IMG/VR virus record: IMGVR_UViG_3300017782_000294
Span: 1 to 20,612 of that record
Reading direction: 5' to 3' (one strand)
DNA from: a virus
DNA length: 20,612 nt
Shown here piece by piece: positions 1,019 through 9,455 of the stretch. Each line of letters opens with the position of its first letter. Position 1 is the stretch's first letter. The notes under the pieces were generated by a model that ran no database searches, was not told where the DNA came from, and worked only from the letters and a program-made list of their open reading frames with translations. A program made the position numbers and the translations under genes.

Positions 1019-2875
1019 TTAATCATAAATATCACCCCAAGTATCCCCATGTTCGTAGTCTACTTTATTGGGAACCTCTAAGGTAACTGCATTCTCCATA
1101 ATCTCAATAACCTTATTTGCTTCTTTATCATCTTTTATAGAAAGATCCAACTCATCATGTATTTGTATGTGCGGTATAATTCCTTCCTTGTAAAGTTCTA
1201 ACATTGCTTTCTTCGTCATGTCTGCGGCAGATCCTTGAATTAATTTGTTAAGAGCTTTATATGTGTAAGCTCTCCTGATCCCCGGTCCATGTTCCCTGAG
1301 TGCATCTTCGTGTGGTAATGCTTTATGCATACCGAATTGATTAGGCTCCCACAAATGAAACCTACATAGTCTACCTAGTAAAGTTCTTATCTGACCACGG
1401 TCCTGTGCACGATTAGATGCTCGTTCCATAAGTTGTTTAACAAAGGGTACTCGACCATGATACGTATTAAATAATTCAGCAGCCTTCTCTTTTGTTACAC
1501 CTAACTCAGCCTGTAATTTAGTTTTACCCATACCATAGAAAAGACCTAGATTGATCGTCTTGGCCTGTGTTCTAGGGATCTTTGCCATGTCAGCTACAGT
1601 CTGATGAAAGTCTGAGTCTTTGTTATTGTGGTAAGCATCAACAACATTATAGACTGATGGTAGTTTATAAAGAGATGCATAGTGTACAACAAGCCTTGGT
1701 TCTTGTTGCGAGTAATCAAAACATCCCCACTTACATCCTTCTTCTGGAATAAATAAGGATCTAATCTTTGGACCTAGATCTTTATTTCTTGCAGGAATTT
1801 GTTGAAGGTTAGGGTTCTGATAACTAAATCTTCCTGTTACTGTCCCACCAAACTGTGAGCGTAATTGATTTATGTCTGCGTGTATTCTACCTTTGTGTTG
1901 ATACTTTAATATTGAATCAATAAAAGTTGTGTGTGCTTTATTAATCTCTCTAGCTTTAGCTATCATCTTTACAACAGGGTGCTCGTGTTCTTGCAAAAAG
2001 TTTTTAGTAAAACTAGGTGCTGAAGTTTTTTGTGTTCTCTCATACGGTATCTTTAAATTATCAAACACTTCTGCAATAGATCGTGCAGCCCATATCTGTG
2101 GTCTGACATTGGTTTCTCTTTCAATAGCTGTGAGTAAATCTCTTTCTTCTTTTACTAATTGTTTCTTCATTAGATGTGCTTTGTCTAAATCAACTCGCAC
2201 ACCTTTAAATTTCATGTCTACAAGACATGGAAAGAGTTCTGTTTCTAAATCAAAAACATCTTCAAGATCTTGGTGAATAATTTCTTTCTTCATTTCTTGC
2301 CACAAACCTAATGTAATTTCAGCGTCACGTTCAGCGTAAGATCCTACGTGCATAGAAGGTAGCTTGTACATCTCAGACTTTGGATCAATGCCCCACTCTG
2401 ATGCAGCTTCAGCTAGTGCACCTTCATTCTTACCATAGCCAAGATGGTGCCAAGACAAACTATTAAGATCATATCTAAATCTATTCTCATCTGTAATAGC
2501 TGCAGCTATCATTGTACAAACAATGTCACCATTTATTTTAAAACCAAGTTGTCTTAACCAACAGACATCATACATTGCATTGTGAAATACTTTGGTTGAA
2601 GGTGCTATTAAAATATCTTTAAGCCACTCTAAAACTTTTTTGCGGTCCATGTTTCCTCCGCCTTCATGTGCGATAGGAAAGTATCCTTTATAGCCATTAG
2701 TGGCTACAGCAATACCAATAACATCACCGTTACCAATCACAGAACCAGATCCTTTTTCTTTTAAGTTTGGATCTTTAGTTTCTAAGTCAATGGCTATCTC
2801 TTCTACTTGTCTAAGATCTGGAAACTCCGTTGGAATAGTCCATTCTGTTTGTGCTTCAAACTTAGGTATTCTCAT
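1019..2875 (-). CDS. polA: Family A DNA polymerase with 3'-5' exonuclease domain
   Basis: This is the replicative polymerase. Numbering is for the 618-aa form starting MRIPKFE. The exonuclease domain shows Exo I (AIDLET, D30/E32), Exo II (FHNAMYDVCWL, N99/D103) and Exo III (YAERD, Y180/D184). The polymerase domain shows TGRFSYQNPNLQQIP (about 347-361), motif A FDYSQQEPR (D387, E392), motif B RTQAKTINLGLFYGMG (R435, K439, L443, Y447) and motif C IHDE (H573-D574-E575). There is no 5'-3' exonuclease domain, as is usual for phage Pol A. The residue equivalent to E. coli Phe762 is Leu. The ATG at 2875 has AAGGA five bases away, whereas the upstream in-frame ATG at 2881 overlaps that SD, so I chose 2875. 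The gene overlaps the DUF3310 gene by 14 bases. Confidence 0.97.
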   Translation of the reverse strand: MRIPKFEAQTEWTIPTEFPDLRQVEEIAIDLETKDPNLKEKGSGSVIGNGDVIGIAVATNGYKGYFPIAHEGGGNMDRKKVLEWLKDILIAPSTKVFHNAMYDVCWLRQLGFKINGDIVCTMIAAAITDENRFRYDLNSLSWHHLGYGKNEGALAEAASEWGIDPKSEMYKLPSMHVGSYAERDAEITLGLWQEMKKEIIHQDLEDVFDLETELFPCLVDMKFKGVRVDLDKAHLMKKQLVKEERDLLTAIERETNVRPQIWAARSIAEVFDNLKIPYERTQKTSAPSFTKNFLQEHEHPVVKMIAKAREINKAHTTFIDSILKYQHKGRIHADINQLRSQFGGTVTGRFSYQNPNLQQIPARNKDLGPKIRSLFIPEEGCKWGCFDYSQQEPRLVVHYASLYKLPSVYNVVDAYHNNKDSDFHQTVADMAKIPRTQAKTINLGLFYGMGKTKLQAELGVTKEKAAELFNTYHGRVPFVKQLMERASNRAQDRGQIRTLLGRLCRFHLWEPNQFGMHKALPHEDALREHGPGIRRAYTYKALNKLIQGSAADMTKKAMLELYKEGIIPHIQIHDELDLSIKDDKEANKVIEIMENAVTLEVPNKVDYEHGDTWGDIYD

Positions 2876-3140
2876 TGTCATCCTTTTTTAATGTGAACCC
2901 TGCTGGTAGAGGTTTTGTGGTAGTGTCCTCTGAATAATCTCTTTCAATAATCATATCGATATAATGTTTTGCTTTTTCAAGATCTTGTTTCTTTCCTTTA
3001 TCGCGATGTCTGATTATGTATTTAATAGCACATCCCTCCGGATATAACAACTCGTTCTCAGATATAAACTGACTTGGCTGAATTTTATACTTCCGGTAAT
3101 GAGATCCTGCAATTTGTTTATCCCAAACTTTCGATGTCAT
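2862..3140 (-). CDS. DUF3310 protein, T7 gp1.7-like nucleotide kinase candidate
   Basis: A 92-aa protein beginning MTSKVWDKQIAGSHYRKYKI. The core matches the DUF3310 signature: a GSHY element near the N-terminus, IQPSQFI, then the helix YPEGCAIKYIIRHRDKGKK followed by DLEKAKHYIDMII. In phage T7 the gp1.7 protein, which carries this domain, has nucleotide (thymidylate) kinase activity, so a role in the dNTP pool is possible. This version is little more than the core domain and the activity is not shown for it. An in-frame ATG exists 27 bases upstream, but AAGGAG sits 7 bases before the ATG at 3140, which fixes the start. It lies between helicase and polymerase genes and overlaps both, so it is co-expressed with the replisome. 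Confidence 0.85.
   Translation of the reverse strand: MTSKVWDKQIAGSHYRKYKIQPSQFISENELLYPEGCAIKYIIRHRDKGKKQDLEKAKHYIDMIIERDYSEDTTTKPLPAGFTLKKDDNENT
2881..2886 (-). promoter_or_regulatory. Ribosome-binding site that decides the polymerase start
   Basis: AAAGGA on the minus strand. It is 5 bases from the ATG at 2875 but overlaps the in-frame ATG at 2881, so it favours the shorter, 618-aa polymerase. Confidence 0.5.
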
Positions 3141-4581
3141 AACTTCTCTCCTTATTTTTTCCTGCAATGAAATACAGATTTTGTTTTGCTCGAGTCACAC
3201 CAACGTACCAAACTCTATGTTCTTCATCTTGTTTCTCTATGCTTCTTTGTAATGATTCTAAAGTACGTTTGGACATATCTAATACTAGTAAAACATTATC
3301 AGCCTCTCCACCTTTGGCTGCGTGTATGGTGGATAGTTTGACCCTTGCTCTACCACTTAGGGGTTCTTTTCTTTCTAACATCTTTCTTATGTATAAGCTG
3401 TCATCCATATCTAGTTGTAACAACTCATACCATTTTAAATTTTTATCTATCTCTTCTATAGTTTTATATGTTGTGTATTCTAAAATATCTTTGGTCTCCG
3501 CTTCGTTTAGTTCTTCACCTTTAATGTATCGTGTCCAATTAATTATGGTCTTGTATAATCTTTCTGAGTAACTTTTCTTATTTTTATATTCATAATAAAT
3601 ACCTAGATCCTTGAGATCTGGCATTAAATTAATTAACCTATAATTAGTTCTAGCCAATATTAACCAATTGCCATCTTGTATTGGTATCTCTTGAAGTGAA
3701 TAAGACTCAGGATATATGTTCCCTGTTTCCTTACGCGGTTGCCATGTTTTTAATATTCGTCTCTCATCAGGAATACGATTTAGTATTTTATTGGCCATAG
3801 ATTGTACGCTCTGTGGCACACGATATGACTTCGGTAATACAATCTCTTTACTAGTTTCTTTTTGAAATCTTTCTACGTCAGCCCCTGCCCAACCATAGAT
3901 AGCTTGATCATCATCACCAGCCAAAACAATATGTTTTGATTTCTTTTTAAGTTCATCGTACATCTTCCATTGTATAGGTGATAAGTCCTGTGCTTCATCA
4001 ATAAACACAACATCAAACGTAGGGCAGAGCTCCCCCGCACGATCGATAAACTTTTGTATCATATCGTTAAAGTCAACTAATTTAAAAGCCTCTTTTCTGT
4101 TATCAAGTTCTATTTTTAATATTTTAACAATCTCAAAGTCTAGATCTTCAGAATACATATTAGTATTAAACTCATCTTCAATAGATATGTTTTTTATTTT
4201 AGCTGAAGATATTAATTTAAAATATTCACTGTTTGAATCAACAAAACCTGTACTGTCTTCACCATTTGAAAATACGGATACCTCAATGCCAACTTCTCTA
4301 CCGATGGCAGCATAGTCTTCATTCTGCATAACATTGCTCTTTTTCATACCTAAAAGATTAAAAGCAAATGAATGTAGTGTTTGAAAGTATGGTAGATCTT
4401 TATCTTCTAACTCAGGATGTTTATCCAACATTCTTCCTCTAGCCTCTCCTGCAGCTTTTTTAGTAAAAGCAAAATACCCTATCCTATGTAATGGTGTGCC
4501 AAACTTAACGAGTGTTCTTACATAGTGTAAAAGTTTTGTTGTTTTACCTGTACCAGGAGGACCCAATATCTTTCTAATCAT
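3118..4581 (-). CDS. UvrD/Dda-like superfamily 1 DNA helicase
   Basis: A 487-aa ATP-dependent DNA helicase. It starts directly with Walker A GPPGTGKTT (residues 7-15). Motif Ia is GYFAFTKKAA (35-44), motif II is VVFIDEAQD (191-199), motif III is GDDDQAIYGWAGA (222-234), and motif IV is LPKSYRVP (249-256). Motif V is STIHAAKGGEAD (417-428) and motif VI is VWYVGVTRAKQ (457-467). The GDDDQAIY and VxxTRAK motifs place it in the UvrD/Rep/PcrA class. The size is far below the roughly 700 aa of UvrD and nearer to phage Dda-type helicases. AAGGAG lies 5 bases before the start, and the ATG overlaps the primase stop as ATGA. It probably unwinds DNA at the fork or displaces proteins. No DnaB-type ring helicase gene is visible in this window. 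Confidence 0.95.
   Translation of the reverse strand: MIRKILGPPGTGKTTKLLHYVRTLVKFGTPLHRIGYFAFTKKAAGEARGRMLDKHPELEDKDLPYFQTLHSFAFNLLGMKKSNVMQNEDYAAIGREVGIEVSVFSNGEDSTGFVDSNSEYFKLISSAKIKNISIEDEFNTNMYSEDLDFEIVKILKIELDNRKEAFKLVDFNDMIQKFIDRAGELCPTFDVVFIDEAQDLSPIQWKMYDELKKKSKHIVLAGDDDQAIYGWAGADVERFQKETSKEIVLPKSYRVPQSVQSMANKILNRIPDERRILKTWQPRKETGNIYPESYSLQEIPIQDGNWLILARTNYRLINLMPDLKDLGIYYEYKNKKSYSERLYKTIINWTRYIKGEELNEAETKDILEYTTYKTIEEIDKNLKWYELLQLDMDDSLYIRKMLERKEPLSGRARVKLSTIHAAKGGEADNVLLVLDMSKRTLESLQRSIEKQDEEHRVWYVGVTRAKQNLYFIAGKNKERSYDIESLG
3148..3153 (-). promoter_or_regulatory. Ribosome-binding site of the DUF3310 gene
   Basis: AAGGAG on the minus strand, 7 bases before the ATG at 3140. It lies inside the 3' flank of the longer open frame and argues against the upstream start at 3167. 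Confidence 0.5.
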
Positions 4582-6209
4582 ATAATCTCCTTATCGTAAT
4601 TAATTTTATTATGTAAAATTTTTACACTTTGAAATTTTTCTAGAGATATCTTAATTAAATGTTTTGTTGGCGTATTGTATTCACCTTTCTTTTGTGATGG
4701 AAACCTCTTCTCCTCAATAAATTCTAAATTGCAATCTTTATAAAACTCCTGTATCATTACGCCCGTTTTATCTTCGGGATACTTCCATCCACTATTTTTT
4801 AACTTGTTATAAAAACTTGCAAATTTAAAATAAGCAAAGCCATCATCAATTAATACGCCACCAGATTTAAAGCTAACATCGTTCTGTGCTCTTGCTCCAT
4901 TTATCTTTTGATGTAATTGATCATGTAGTTTTTCTTTTGGTGTTGTACCTATCGGTGGATCTTGCACTGTTAATGTTCTGTATAAATCTTCTAAAACTTT
5001 TTGATCATCACCAGACTTAATCATGGGTGGTGGAAAACCCGCATACTTTGATATGGCATTACGTCTCTTTCTTTGATCGTTAACGTGCTCCACGTTTCGA
5101 CAATGCACTGTTCGTACGTCTTCACCATCGGGTAGGGTAACATCAAACGTGTATTCTGCTTCAGGTTCTAAATCAATCTTGACTAAATTAGTAAGGATTG
5201 GATAGCTACCCTTAGATCCGCACAGCACACCAAACTTTCTTTTTACACAGATACCTTTTTTACAATAGTCACTGATAGGACTCTGTGTGCATGTGTATCC
5301 CTTGTACGTATCTCGCCATGATTTTAGTTTGGCCTTTAATTTATTTTTGTCCCATGCGTGTGCATTGGCACCAGAAAAAAACTTAACAGGTGCATCCATA
5401 ACCATCTGCTCCCAATTCTCTTCATACTTTAATTTTACAAAGACATGATAGTTATAGAGAAATCTATCTTTACCATCGAACCCTTCTTCTTTGGTTAGTT
5501 TAGATAGTTCTGCCAAACACGGCGGTCCCTCTCTAAATATATCATCAACACCTTGCATAGCCACAGCATCTATACTGTCTGTTACTTTTTTAAGGTCTTC
5601 TTCTACAACAAGATTAGCTTGTATAACTTTCATAAATTCTTCGAAAGAGAATTTAGTTCCATCCATATTTAAAGCTATTCTTTCTGACTTTTTAAAATAA
5701 GGTAGATTAATAAAATTACCTTTACTTATTTTTCCTGTTTCAGAATCTTTTACTAGTCGTGTTTGTTTTGGAAATATTTCTGTGTCGTATTTTAATTTAA
5801 ATAATGGCAACAGATTACTTAAAAAAGATCTTAACACTGTTGCGCTAATAAAATCTTTTAAGAATATATAAAGATGCATACCACCACTTTTAGACAGCAC
5901 GGGTATCAATGGTAAATTAAACTTCTGTATTGTATCAAAAAACTTTTTACGGTCGTACTTCTCATAATCTTTGAAGTCAACATCGATGGCACCGAACCTT
6001 GCTAGTCCATCCTTAGTACAAGGTTGGATACCGATCGACCTTTCTCCAGCCAAGTGTTCGTTGTAGACTTGGTCTGTTATGTCCTCATCGTTCCAACGAT
6101 AACTTGGTTTCTGCTTTTTGGTAATAGGATCTATTTCAAGGCGACTCATGTCGGCTTGACCATACGCAAGATCATACCCAGCGAAATATTTAGAAAATAA
6201 ATTATCCAT
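4578..6209 (-). CDS. Archaeo-eukaryotic-type primase with four-cysteine C-terminal domain
   Basis: A 543-aa primase or primase-polymerase. The N-terminal domain has AEP signatures: the metal-binding pair AIDVDF (D76, D78), SKSGGMHLYIF (residues 106-116, the sGxGxH-like motif with H112), and DTEIFPKQTRL followed by GNFINLPYF (142-172). This order resembles AEP primases of the TOTE/PrimPol type. The middle and C-terminal part carries GPPC (C231), YTC (C307), DYC (C316), GIC (C321) and VLC (C330). The first four of these have the order seen in the Fe-S domain of primase large subunits. The gene lacks a clear Shine-Dalgarno and follows a hairpin (6218-6251). It is coupled by ATGA to the SF1 helicase and probably makes primers for the family A polymerase. 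AEP assignment is firm; an Fe-S cluster is inference. Confidence 0.85.
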   Translation of the reverse strand: MDNLFSKYFAGYDLAYGQADMSRLEIDPITKKQKPSYRWNDEDITDQVYNEHLAGERSIGIQPCTKDGLARFGAIDVDFKDYEKYDRKKFFDTIQKFNLPLIPVLSKSGGMHLYIFLKDFISATVLRSFLSNLLPLFKLKYDTEIFPKQTRLVKDSETGKISKGNFINLPYFKKSERIALNMDGTKFSFEEFMKVIQANLVVEEDLKKVTDSIDAVAMQGVDDIFREGPPCLAELSKLTKEEGFDGKDRFLYNYHVFVKLKYEENWEQMVMDAPVKFFSGANAHAWDKNKLKAKLKSWRDTYKGYTCTQSPISDYCKKGICVKRKFGVLCGSKGSYPILTNLVKIDLEPEAEYTFDVTLPDGEDVRTVHCRNVEHVNDQRKRRNAISKYAGFPPPMIKSGDDQKVLEDLYRTLTVQDPPIGTTPKEKLHDQLHQKINGARAQNDVSFKSGGVLIDDGFAYFKFASFYNKLKNSGWKYPEDKTGVMIQEFYKDCNLEFIEEKRFPSQKKGEYNTPTKHLIKISLEKFQSVKILHNKINYDKEII

Positions 6210-6269: not shown

Positions 6270-7034
6270 CTAAATAATCGAATCTTTCTCTGCTGATTCA
6301 TTTCCATGTTTGACTTTTACTTGTCCTTTGGAAATGTTTTCAGAGAACGCTTTCGCTTGTGAGTAAAGAGCTGCGTCTTCTATTGGACCCACCTTATTTA
6401 CTTTCCAACCAAACCAAGTGCCTTTATCGTTTGACATTTGAGTTGTTGCTAAATTGTAAATATGACTAAATGCAGGTGGCTGATATAGATTACCACTCTT
6501 GCCTTTTAATCTTAGGCTTGACAACATTGAGTTCCAATTTCTACTCACTTTTAGTTGTGTAGATTTCATTGTAATCAAAGCTGTGCATGGGCTGTCACCA
6601 GTTACAATTACATAATGACTCGCAGTTTTTTCTACGTAATTACCATTGGGTAATCTGTCTTTGTAGTTTGCATCCGGTTTTGTTTTACTGATTACGTCAG
6701 ATGTAGACGGGTGTACTGTTACTGGCGCACCAGAACCTTCACCTCTATCTTTCCACTCGACATATTCAAGTTTGTAAAAACAAGGTATGACATTGATACC
6801 CTTCTCACCATCAAACAATTGATGTGATACAGAGTTATATATCATCCCTGGTTCTGCACCTTCGACATATTTACCGTCCCTTTTGTTTACTTCGGGTGAT
6901 AACTGTCCAAGGATTTTCAAAAAAGGCAGCGCTAAGTCTTCTTGACCTAACGTACCTAAACCTTTTCCAGCATCCTGTTCCATTACATTGGCAGGTAGGC
7001 TAGCAGTTTTTTTTGTTACGTTTCCTGTTTCCAT
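6270..7034 (-). CDS. Probable phage single-stranded DNA-binding protein
   Basis: A soluble 254-aa protein. Near the N-terminus (about residues 30-56) it has the block LGQEDLALPFLKILGQLSPE. This is followed by EPGMIYNSVSHQLFDGEKG and VIPCFYKLEYVEWKDRG, a pattern I associate with phage proteins annotated as ssDNA-binding. The remainder is rich in beta-type segments with aromatic and basic residues (KVSRNWNSML, GTWFGWKVNKVG). The tail is short and mixed-charge, ending SAEKDSII, so it lacks the strongly acidic tip of bacterial SSB. AAGGA lies about 9 bases before the ATG, and one base separates it from the stop of the upstream gene. Its place beside primase, helicase and polymerase supports a replication or recombination role. 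The function is a family-level recollection plus context, not motif proof. Confidence 0.6.
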   Translation of the reverse strand: METGNVTKKTASLPANVMEQDAGKGLGTLGQEDLALPFLKILGQLSPEVNKRDGKYVEGAEPGMIYNSVSHQLFDGEKGINVIPCFYKLEYVEWKDRGEGSGAPVTVHPSTSDVISKTKPDANYKDRLPNGNYVEKTASHYVIVTGDSPCTALITMKSTQLKVSRNWNSMLSSLRLKGKSGNLYQPPAFSHIYNLATTQMSNDKGTWFGWKVNKVGPIEDAALYSQAKAFSENISKGQVKVKHGNESAEKDSII

Positions 7035-7035
7035 A

Positions 7036-7590
7036 TTATTTGTTCCTTGTTATTTTAGTTCTGTTGCCTGAGAACACGTTAAACAAGTCCGTTGGCATAT
7101 CCTGTCCAGCCTCGATACGCTCACGGACTAGTGCTTTAAGTGTCATGGGTTCGACCTTTAATTTCTGGACGGGTTCGTACCCTTGACCTTGCGCAAGGAC
7201 AGCATAATGCTGTGCCTTGTTATCTTCGTCACGACCAAAGGCAACGGTTATCTCATTTTTGATAAGATCACCTAAGCCGTGCTCACGAAGCCATTTGAAT
7301 GCTTCTTCCTTCTTAGCAATAGGAATAGAAGCACCGTAGACGGGTTTAACTTCAACAGCTGAACCGTCTGCTAATTTAAGAGATGAGATGTTCATTTCCT
7401 GCATGATGGTAGGAATTACCTCACCCGAAACTTTATCTGCCTCTCGCTTTTTATCTTTTAGTTGAATCTCTAGGTCTTTTATTTGATCCTCTAAAGATTG
7501 CAATCTAACAACTTGCGTTGATAGCTCACCTGCATTATCTGCAGAAGCTAATTCTTTTGTTTTGTCTTGTTCGAAGTCTATACTATTCAT
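7036..7590 (-). CDS. Coiled-coil early protein of unknown function, 184 aa
   Basis: The first part (about residues 25-54, VVRLQSLEDQIKDLEIQLK...) is a charged heptad region, a likely coiled coil and oligomerisation segment. It is followed by a globular part with LKLADGSAVEVKPVYGASIP (71-90), KKEEAFKWLREHGLGDLIKN (93-112) and a C-terminal helix LKALVRERIEAG (151-162). There are no membrane segments or known catalytic motifs. A longer in-frame start exists at 7623, but AAAGGAG with a 6-base spacer precedes the ATG at 7590, which I take as the start. The gene overlaps the end of the 132-aa gene by 8 bases and is followed after one base by the SSB candidate, so it sits in the replication operon. 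Its function is unknown; a DNA-binding or SSB partner role would fit the context. Confidence 0.8.
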   Translation of the reverse strand: MNSIDFEQDKTKELASADNAGELSTQVVRLQSLEDQIKDLEIQLKDKKREADKVSGEVIPTIMQEMNISSLKLADGSAVEVKPVYGASIPIAKKEEAFKWLREHGLGDLIKNEITVAFGRDEDNKAQHYAVLAQGQGYEPVQKLKVEPMTLKALVRERIEAGQDMPTDLFNVFSGNRTKITRNK

Positions 7591-7981
7591 TAATTTCTCC
7601 TTTCTCATATAAATTGATTTCAATTGGATAGTATCTTTTTTCTTGTTTATCCCACTTTAACAAATTGAATTTACCATTTGTTAATTCTGATATGATAGAA
7701 CAGGCTACACCTATTATCGCAGGGTCACCTGTAAGTAACACATAATCAGTGGGTCTATAATCTCTCAACAGTTTTCTTAATTTAAAAATTAATGGACCTG
7801 GTGAAAAAATTATTTGTGAAAGTTCTGGTAGTAGAAATTCTAACTTACCATACTGCGAGGCACCCATAATATTAAACTTAGGACGACCATCCCTGGTCCC
7901 CGCTACTTCTTGCAATACATATACTTTAGGTACACGTACCTGTTTAACATTTGAATAATCCTGCTTTCTGTCGTCTTTCAT
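7583..7981 (-). CDS. Conserved marine-phage protein of unknown function, about 132 aa
   Basis: A soluble protein starting MKDDRKQDYSNVKQVRVPKV. It carries the blocks VYVLQEVAGTRDGRPKFN, LLPELSQIIFSPGPLIFKL, DYVLLTGDPAIIGVA and LLKWDKQEKRYYPIEINL. These together resemble a family I recall as widespread but uncharacterised in marine and cyanophages. No catalytic motif is evident, and LTGDPAIIG might form a ligand-binding loop. It is the first gene of the leftward replication block. Three in-frame ATGs are possible (8017, 7990, 7981), and none has a Shine-Dalgarno. The two upstream ones lie inside the palindromic control region, so I prefer 7981. If the box at about 7989-7994 is the -10 element, the transcript would start almost at this ATG and be leaderless. 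Confidence 0.75.
   Translation of the reverse strand: MKDDRKQDYSNVKQVRVPKVYVLQEVAGTRDGRPKFNIMGASQYGKLEFLLPELSQIIFSPGPLIFKLRKLLRDYRPTDYVLLTGDPAIIGVACSIISELTNGKFNLLKWDKQEKRYYPIEINLYEKGEINE
7597..7602 (-). promoter_or_regulatory. Ribosome-binding site of the 184-aa gene
   Basis: AAGGAG on the minus strand, 6 bases before the ATG at 7590. It favours this start over the in-frame upstream codon at 7623. Confidence 0.5.
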
Positions 7982-7983
7982 AC

Positions 7984-8017
7984 TTGACATTAATAAACTA
8001 TATAGTATCAATGTCAA
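7984..8017. promoter_or_regulatory. Divergent promoter/operator with inverted repeat
   Basis: The arms TTGACATT (7984-7991) and AATGTCAA (8010-8017) form a perfect 8-bp inverted repeat with an 18-base spacer. The spacer contains the 10-bp palindrome ACTATATAGT (7997-8006). Each arm gives an exact TTGACA -35 box, one per strand. Sixteen to seventeen bases beyond them are weak -10 candidates (TATCAA on plus, TATTAA or ATTAAT on minus). The palindrome gives TATAGT on both strands but too close to the TTGACA boxes (9 and 11 bases). The element sits between the leftward replication operon and the rightward SNF2 gene, whose ATG is 8 bases away. It is either an overlapping divergent promoter or a repressor operator. 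Confidence 0.55.
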
Positions 8018-8024
8018 TAGAAAG

Positions 8025-9455
8025 ATGAATTACAAATTTAAGACAAAACCGTATGCGCATCAGCTTAAGGCTTTAGAACTGTCTTGGGATAAAGAATTTT
8101 TTGCGTACTTTATGGAGATGGGTACTGGCAAATCTAAAGTATTAATAGATAATATAGCCATGCTTTATGACAAAGGTAAGATAGATGGTGCCTTAATTGT
8201 GGCACCCAAAGGTGTTGTGGGTACGTGGTATTTAAATCAGGTTCCTGATCATTTGCCTGACCATATAGAAAAAACTAACGTATTGTGGAAAGCAGCAATA
8301 ACAAAGAAACAGAAACAGAGACTATCTAGTTTATTTGAAACAAATGAAAAGCTACATATATTAATTATGAACGTAGAAGCCTTTTCTACAACAAAGGGTT
8401 GTGAGTTTGCTAAAAGATTTTTAAATAGTCATAGGACATTATTAGCTATCGATGAGTCTACAACTATTAAGAACCCCGATGCTAAAAGAACTAAGAATAT
8501 ATGTGAGCTCGCTAAATTAAGTAGATACAGAAGAATATTAACAGGGTCGCCTGTAACTAAATCACCTCTAGATCTCTATAAACAATGTGATTTTTTATTA
8601 GAAGAATTACTAGGTCATGGATCTTATTATACATTTAGAACAAGATACGCAATTATGAAGACGGCAAATTTTGGTGGAAGATCTGTCAATATTGTGGTGG
8701 GTTATCGTAATTTAGGTGAGTTATCAGAAAAATTAAAACCTTTTTCGTATCGTGTTTTAAAAGATGATTGTTTGGATTTACCCGATAAAATATTTATGAA
8801 ACGTATTATTCAACTTACACCAGAACAACAAAAAGTTTATAGAGAAATGAAAGCACTAGCTTTAGCAGAGATGAATGGTAAGACCATGTCTACAGCCACA
8901 GTGTTGACTCAGCTTATGAGATTACATCAAATAACTTGTGGTCATTTTACTTCTGATGACGGCACCATACAAAAAATAAAAAACAATAGGCTAGATGAAC
9001 TTATGAATGTTCTTGAAGAAATGGAAGGCAAGGTTGTAATTTGGGCACATTACCAGAACGATGTAGAGACAATTGTAGAACATATAAGAAAGAAGTATGG
9101 GGATAAATCAGTTGTTGATTATTATGGTAGAACTAGACCCGAAAATCGTCAAGATAATATTAATAGATTTCAAAAAGAAGAACAGTGTAGATTTTTTATT
9201 GGCACACCTGCTACAGGAGGTTATGGTATTACGTTAACTGAAGCTAGTAATGTAGTTTATTATTCTAACGGTTACGATCTTGAAAAACGTATGCAATCAG
9301 AAGATCGAGCGCATAGAATAGGGCAAGTTCAAAAAGTAACCTACGTAGATTTTATAGCAGAAGATACTGTTGACGAGAAAATTGTAAAATCATTAAGAAA
9401 GAAAGTAAATATTGCTACCCAAATTATGGGAGAAGAGTTAAAAGATTGGATATGA
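8025..9455 (+). CDS. SNF2-type superfamily 2 helicase/ATPase
   Basis: A 476-aa DNA-dependent ATPase of the SNF2/Rad54-like group. The Q-type motif is YAHQ (10-13) and Walker A is MGTGKSK (32-38). Motif Ia is LIVAPKGVVGTW (57-68), motif II is AIDEST (141-146), and motif III is LTGSP (172-176). The second RecA domain contains VVIWAHYQNDVE (337-348), motif V from GTPATGGYGITLTEASNVV (393-411) and motif VI QSEDRAHRIGQ (424-434), the SNF2 hallmark. DES in place of DEAH or DEGH is seen in motif II. No extra nuclease or methylase domain is present; it is close to the minimal two-domain engine. It is transcribed opposite to its neighbours, from the palindromic region, with only a weak AGAAAG before the ATG. 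It may remodel DNA during replication or recombination; the substrate is unknown. Confidence 0.95.
   Translation: MNYKFKTKPYAHQLKALELSWDKEFFAYFMEMGTGKSKVLIDNIAMLYDKGKIDGALIVAPKGVVGTWYLNQVPDHLPDHIEKTNVLWKAAITKKQKQRLSSLFETNEKLHILIMNVEAFSTTKGCEFAKRFLNSHRTLLAIDESTTIKNPDAKRTKNICELAKLSRYRRILTGSPVTKSPLDLYKQCDFLLEELLGHGSYYTFRTRYAIMKTANFGGRSVNIVVGYRNLGELSEKLKPFSYRVLKDDCLDLPDKIFMKRIIQLTPEQQKVYREMKALALAEMNGKTMSTATVLTQLMRLHQITCGHFTSDDGTIQKIKNNRLDELMNVLEEMEGKVVIWAHYQNDVETIVEHIRKKYGDKSVVDYYGRTRPENRQDNINRFQKEEQCRFFIGTPATGGYGITLTEASNVVYYSNGYDLEKRMQSEDRAHRIGQVQKVTYVDFIAEDTVDEKIVKSLRKKVNIATQIMGEELKDWI

Follow-up and report, generated by a model that had tools for sequence, protein, structure and literature searches.

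Primases that carry an AEP catalytic domain and a PriL-like cysteine domain in a single chain have been described before. PolpTN2, encoded by the Thermococcus plasmid pTN2, is a PriS-PriL fusion with four cysteines, and the purified protein is light brown, consistent with an Fe-S cluster (PMC3973330). The same paper cites fused PriS-PriL primases from Nanoarchaeum equitans and from the Bacillus provirus phBC6A51. PolpTN2-like AEPs fall in the PrimPol-PV1 supergroup (PMC5862659) and come with PriCT-1, PriL-like and WH domains. MpCAPP carries, after its AEP domain, a PriCT domain whose cysteines are conserved (PMC8211822); the CAPP C-terminal domain has been modelled as Pri2/PriX-like, and the CAPP AEP domain alone is able to prime (PMC10345425). 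Homology of PriCT-1 and PriCT-2 to PriL Fe-S_N and PriX has also been proposed; for PriCT-2, two of the four cysteines align (PMC5862659).

The primase considered here comes from a marine phage and is encoded in a window of 20,612 nucleotides, the whole stretch of viral DNA that was analysed (IMG/VR record IMGVR_UViG_3300017782_000294). A first-pass annotation of the window had implied that its one-chain architecture is rare. This was overstated, given the fused primases reported for pTN2, N. equitans and phBC6A51 (PMC3973330) and the similar CAPP proteins (PMC8211822). Single-chain primases are known; what is new is the full PriL cysteine set placed around PriCT-1 and invariant in a large phage family. 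No account of a full PriL cysteine set in this phage family was found in a literature search that reached few subscription papers and preprints.

The closest named relative is gp04 of Pelagibacter phage HTVC027P (QGZ17785.1; PHROG 21866), a full-length homologue (39% identity over 99%) that shares the operon order and the four cysteines but is annotated just as "primase", and no published account of its cysteine domain came to light. PolpTN2 is alike in being a single-chain AEP with a PriL-like four-cysteine domain, whereas it belongs to another AEP family, is larger and has a cysteine spacing of about C-x90-C-x5-C-x8-C, as counted by eye on its ORF, L391. The pTN2 record stops where this ORF (L391:10248-13013) ends, and the PLSDB gene table does not list it. 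The phBC6A51 and N. equitans proteins, compared by citation only, are likewise one-chain PriS-PriL fusions, one of them in a phage. The CAPP/TOTE group provides the nearest solved AEP, and CAPP, known here by description, also has an AEP followed by a cysteine-bearing PriCT domain. The differences are the TPR domain at the N terminus of CAPP, its neighbouring cas genes and another type of C-terminal end, the phage gene lying instead in a replication operon.

The gene and its replication operon

The ORF reported in the first-pass annotation is real, and the residues named in it are found at the positions given for them, but its strand needed correction to minus (Table 1). The plus strand of 4578-6209 has stops throughout and no open frame. 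The protein matches PHROG 21866 "primase" (E 6e-107), and the AF2 model of the full-length chain has a mean pLDDT of 90.6. In that model residues 339-543 appear to form a small beta unit, helices and a winged-helix-like end.

Table 1 Features of the primase and of neighbouring operon genes in the window
Feature	Coordinates	Strand	Basis
AEP-type phage primase (543 aa + stop)	4578..6209	minus	ORF, PHROG 21866, AF2
AEP (TOTE/CAPP-type) catalytic domain, ~residues 1-200	5610..6209	minus	Pfam, profile, Foldseek
Catalytic motif D76-x-D78 (DVD)	5976..5984	minus	170/170
SKSGGMH motif, residues 106-112 (H112)	5874..5894	minus	K107, S108, G110, H112 170/170
EIFPKQ, residues 144-149	5763..5780	minus	E144, P147 170/170; K148, Q149 169/170
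PriCT-1 / PriL Fe-S-like helical domain, residues 218-338	5196..5558	minus	Pfam in homologues, AF2, PriL profile
PPC, residues 229-231, first cysteine C231	5517..5525	minus	170/170; aligns with archaeal PriL PPC
K247, basic residue	5469..5471	minus	170/170 basic; aligned to PriL initiation Arg
Second cysteine C307 (YTC)	5289..5291	minus	170/170
Third cysteine C316 (DYC)	5262..5264	minus	170/170; C2-x8-C3 in 169/170
Fourth cysteine C321 (GIC)	5247..5249	minus	170/170; C3-x4-C4
C-terminal region, residues 339-543	4581..5195	minus	AF2 secondary structure
UvrD/Rep-type helicase	3118..4581	minus	Pfam UvrD-helicase E 2.3e-32; same operon
Family A DNA polymerase with 3'-5' exonuclease	1019..2881	minus	Pfam DNA_pol_A E 3e-67; same operon
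Pam3 gp34-like protein, directly upstream of primase	6270..7034	minus	Pfam PF23977 E 1.6e-71

The minus-strand gene order is Pam3 gp32-, gp33- and gp34-like proteins, primase, UvrD-like helicase, DUF3310 protein, PolA and a 216-aa protein, with the helicase gene overlapping that of the primase by 4 bases. The order primase-helicase-PolA is conserved in HTVC027P, 023Pt and DSL-LC04. The window is a genome fragment, and the absence of DnaG and DnaB rests on 18 gene-carrying records (11 full deposited phages and 7 long contigs), none of which matched DNAG_N, Toprim_2 or DnaB_C while the controls did match. This agrees with the earlier remark that no TOPRIM primase is in view beside the family A polymerase.

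The closest characterised AEPs are TOTE and the CRISPR-associated CAPP, and host dnaG is upregulated in pelagiphage infection, HTVC027P included (PMC12753301); both observations would suit a TOTE/CAPP-like primase-polymerase that acts mainly in repair or conflict and leaves replication to host DnaG. We consider such a role quite improbable, because the gene is found in a replication operon together with helicase and PolA across several phage lineages and no cas gene was seen in the flanks. Neither the Pfam and PHROG matches of the scanned window genes nor the annotated flanks of relatives include a cas gene, and membership in CAPP, which calls for an operonic cas association, was rejected on this ground.

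The Pam3 gp32/gp33/gp34-like proteins (6270-8017, minus) may belong to the replication machinery, because HTVC027P, 023Pt and DSL-LC04 have similar-sized genes in the corresponding place. The 216-aa protein beside PolA (366-1016, minus) matches the ferredoxin family PHROG 3704, and the HTVC027P protein in the equivalent position is named PurM; as these labels disagree and Pfam gives no match, both are doubtful. An SNF2-type helicase gene (8025-9455, plus) diverges from the replication operon, and related phages likewise have SF2 helicases close to the primase. Genes of 7-deazaguanine type follow the primase-helicase pair immediately downstream in Pan1 and R5C (QueD, QueC) and in R26L (QueD) (L005, L006 and L011), hinting at modified DNA.

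A large family with invariant catalytic and cysteine residues

Searches with tblastn gave 24 deposited phages with a homologue, many annotated as primase. These include the Pelagibacter phages HTVC027P and HTVC023P, phage 023Pt_psg01 and Pseudanabaena phage Pan1, as well as Dinoroseobacter, Acinetobacter, Klebsiella, Providencia, Pseudomonas and Salmonella phages. Scans of viral contigs added at least several hundred more. Conservation was scored on an alignment of 170 sequences (viral contigs made 90% non-redundant plus 11 deposited phages), for which the contigs were chosen by AEP-domain patterns or near-identity, the cysteines playing no part in selection. D76, D78, K107, H112, E144, N168, C231, C307, C316, C321 and G327 are invariant (170/170), and the two prolines preceding C231 are present in 166/170 and 169/170. 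Another 79 proteins, from a scan whose seeds were for the most part relatives lacking the cysteines, likewise have all four. Chance conservation of the named residues is not a serious alternative. An alignment of homologues had been proposed as the check on C231, C307, C316 and C321, and each passes it in every sequence; the additional C330 named beside them is not conserved (its column varies among S, G, A and others across the 170 homologues), and it was dropped as a candidate ligand.

Residues 42-175 match Pfam AEP-TOTE (E 1.5e-15), the primase profile matches MpCAPP (7nqd, E 2.6e-16) and Foldseek retrieved the CAPP Prim-Pol structure (7nqf, E 2e-10). By both profile and Foldseek, MpCAPP is the nearest solved structure to the catalytic domain. 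The fold together with the DxD and sxH-type motifs places the protein in the AEP superfamily (AEP-TOTE). The AEP motifs recognised in the first-pass annotation (D76 and D78; SKSGGMH) are thus present, and its two acidic residues are upheld, although E144 of the EIFPKQ segment, equally invariant, went unlisted. E144 is probably the third metal ligand.

A helical domain with PriCT-1 matches in homologues

When residues 218-338 were modelled alone, AF2 gave four main helices and zero strands (pLDDT 86, pTM 0.81). A simple zinc ribbon, the fold that would have spoken against the earlier proposal, is therefore excluded, and the sequence also lacks CxxC knuckles.

PriCT_1 (PF08708) was matched by 46 of 86 homologues (best E 1.2e-7), a count that admits E-values up to 5, so that the weakest matches carry little meaning; the window primase itself had no Pfam match to PriCT_1. 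The curated cut-off is passed by three four-cysteine relatives (L291, L306 and L330), in which the match spans the segment between the first and second cysteines, and two others (L179 and L169) fall below it. The points in common with PriCT-1 are these family matches in part of the homologues and the placement after an AEP domain. The phage family differs in that it brackets the domain with four cysteines, whereas cysteine-less PriCT-1 relatives exist.

Comparison with the PriL Fe-S domain

PriL reference sequences were gathered from Asgard genomes. In ten of archaeal type the ligands are spaced C-x71/72-C-x8-C-x5/6-C, and in the phage family (n=170) the spacing is C-x(67-128, median 69)-C-x8-C-x4-C, with x8/x4 in 169/170. 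All 170 phage sequences have four conserved cysteines in the PriL order and with nearly its spacing. When the phage domain profile was aligned by hhalign with 31 Asgard PriL C-terminal domains (CTDs), the match had P 7.3e-5 and a probability of 62%. An unguided alignment with the accuracy filter off covered the whole domain, placing PPC on PPC and C307, C316 and C321 on the remaining ligands. It was preceded by smaller PriL profiles (10 and 3 sequences), which gave only partial alignments. None of 200 column-shuffled controls reached the real score; counted over match columns only, the real profile scored 23.8 and the best shuffle 19.8. Reversing the profile gave a score of 13.4 and no match, and masking the cysteines lowered the score to 15.9, within the shuffle range. 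Hence the PriL profile signal is real against the shuffle null, yet it is largely driven by the cysteines.

The hhalign alignment also pairs K247 with the PriL Arg at C+19. Across the family this position is Arg in 156/170 and Lys in 14/170. The pairing matters because yeast PriL R355 and human R306, which overlie PriX R72 at the NTP site, are essential for initiation (PMC5700102).

The window had no match to Pfam DNA_primase_lrg (PF04104), and a PDB sequence search with the domain profile returned nothing relevant. A PDB fold search with the cysteine domain gave no significant match, the best PriL having E 2.2; human, Xenopus (two) and yeast PriL-CTD chains made up 4 of 41 weak matches (E 2-6). 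Baculovirus LEF-2 is the counterpart of PriL. In the BFVD fold search two primases came first (the R5C homologue among them), followed by a LEF-2 (prob 0.57); one more LEF-2 and the large subunit of an archaeal-virus primase were also retrieved. The fold searches weakly suggest kinship with PriL, and they converge across PDB and BFVD. The fold check proposed in the first-pass annotation thus yielded a helical domain with PriL-CTD chains among its matches, although at non-significant E-values.

Could the cysteine domain be a convergent metal-binding domain with no kinship to PriL? The non-significant PDB matches and the loss of profile signal on cysteine masking are what convergence would give, but we consider it very unlikely in view of the independent Pfam PriCT_1 matches (PriCT-1 itself being tied to PriL Fe-S_N; PMC5862659), the basic residue in 170/170 sequences at the position of the PriL initiation Arg, and the recurrence of LEF-2, PriL and the archaeal-virus large subunit among the weak fold matches. 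Residues 218-338 are probably homologous to PriL-CTD. The claim that a PriL-like four-cysteine domain is joined to an AEP domain in one chain holds up, since cysteine order, near-spacing and unguided alignment agree. The phage domain resembles the archaeal and eukaryotic PriL C-terminal Fe-S domain (PF04104) in cysteine order, near-spacing, PPC start, an initiation Arg equivalent and helical fold, whereas it is fused to the catalytic domain, is shorter and has no Pfam-level match.

Four invariant cysteines alone could also bind zinc. The same primase might then have a PriCT-1 domain in which a zinc staple, rather than a 4Fe-4S cluster, plays a structural part. AEP domains are often followed by zinc-binding ones (ZnBD, PrimQH family; PMC5862659), and some relatives that have none of the four cysteines retain the domain, which is compatible with a structural site. 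However, the helical fold and the arrangement C-x69-C-x8-C-x4-C, which has no CxxC knuckle and follows archaeal PriL in ligand order, spacing and profile alignment, argue for the cluster, and we regard zinc as rather unlikely.

The cysteines are all present or all absent in relatives

Among bacterial and archaeal genome contigs, 55 relatives had the four cysteines and one had all except a masked position. Twenty alphaproteobacterial relatives were without the four-cysteine set, one of them having a chance C at the first column. Intermediate states with two or three cysteines were absent from the bacterial and archaeal relatives and from the follow-up scan, and the cysteines are all-or-none across the 123 rows of the tree. 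A single metal site would be expected to leave this joint pattern. In the AEP-domain tree the cysteine-less rows are scattered, and well supported branches force at least two changes (the bootstrap is not fully settled). Of the cysteine-less relatives scanned with Pfam, three (L335, L345 and L329) match PriCT_1, two of them with DUF5906, and another (L341) had no match to it. The alphaproteobacterial AEP relatives lacking the four cysteines (L335, L345-L349, L328, L329, L331, L338, L353 and L354) could be natural cysteine-less controls.

One four-cysteine primase of the family lies on a Lokiarchaeota MAG contig (L306, 2186-3202), and the same Asgard genome has its own PriL (L355). This contig is possibly from an archaeal virus or a binning error.

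Discussion

We think it probable that the protein is the phage's own replicative primase, a single-chain AEP whose PriCT-1/PriL-type domain has a predicted 4Fe-4S cluster and which would hand its primer to PolA. In this scheme the N-terminal AEP domain (D76, D78, H112 and probably E144) would make the primer. The helical domain of residues 218-338 most likely grips the initiating nucleotide by its 5' triphosphate (in the K/R247 region) and holds the template as well, as PriL-CTD or PriX does, and holding both would let the first dinucleotide form. Most likely a single 4Fe-4S cluster is coordinated by the four cysteines, where it would tie the C-terminal loop to the PPC helix and stabilise the site. 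PolA, encoded in the same operon, would then extend the primer, with the UvrD-like helicase as a candidate partner. Note that the Fe-S cluster is dispensable in the Sulfolobus primase (PMC5700102) and that the CAPP AEP primes without its CTD; therefore the cysteine domain may be unneeded for catalysis.

A broader proposal, which we advance tentatively and rate somewhat below an even chance, is that this widespread phage family has retained an intact PriL-type 4Fe-4S domain within the segment that Pfam names PriCT-1. The PriCT-1 of mobile elements would then be a PriL Fe-S domain whose cluster some lineages lost, with all four ligands going together, and bacterial phages would possess an archaeo-eukaryotic primase, fused and complete, priming a family A polymerase of bacterial type.

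The phage family links two domain families that were previously connected only distantly. Should the cluster prove real, a compact single-chain primase bearing a PriL-type Fe-S domain would be present in hundreds of phages, marine ones and others. The family also points to a way in which such phages, having no DnaG themselves, may prime replication.
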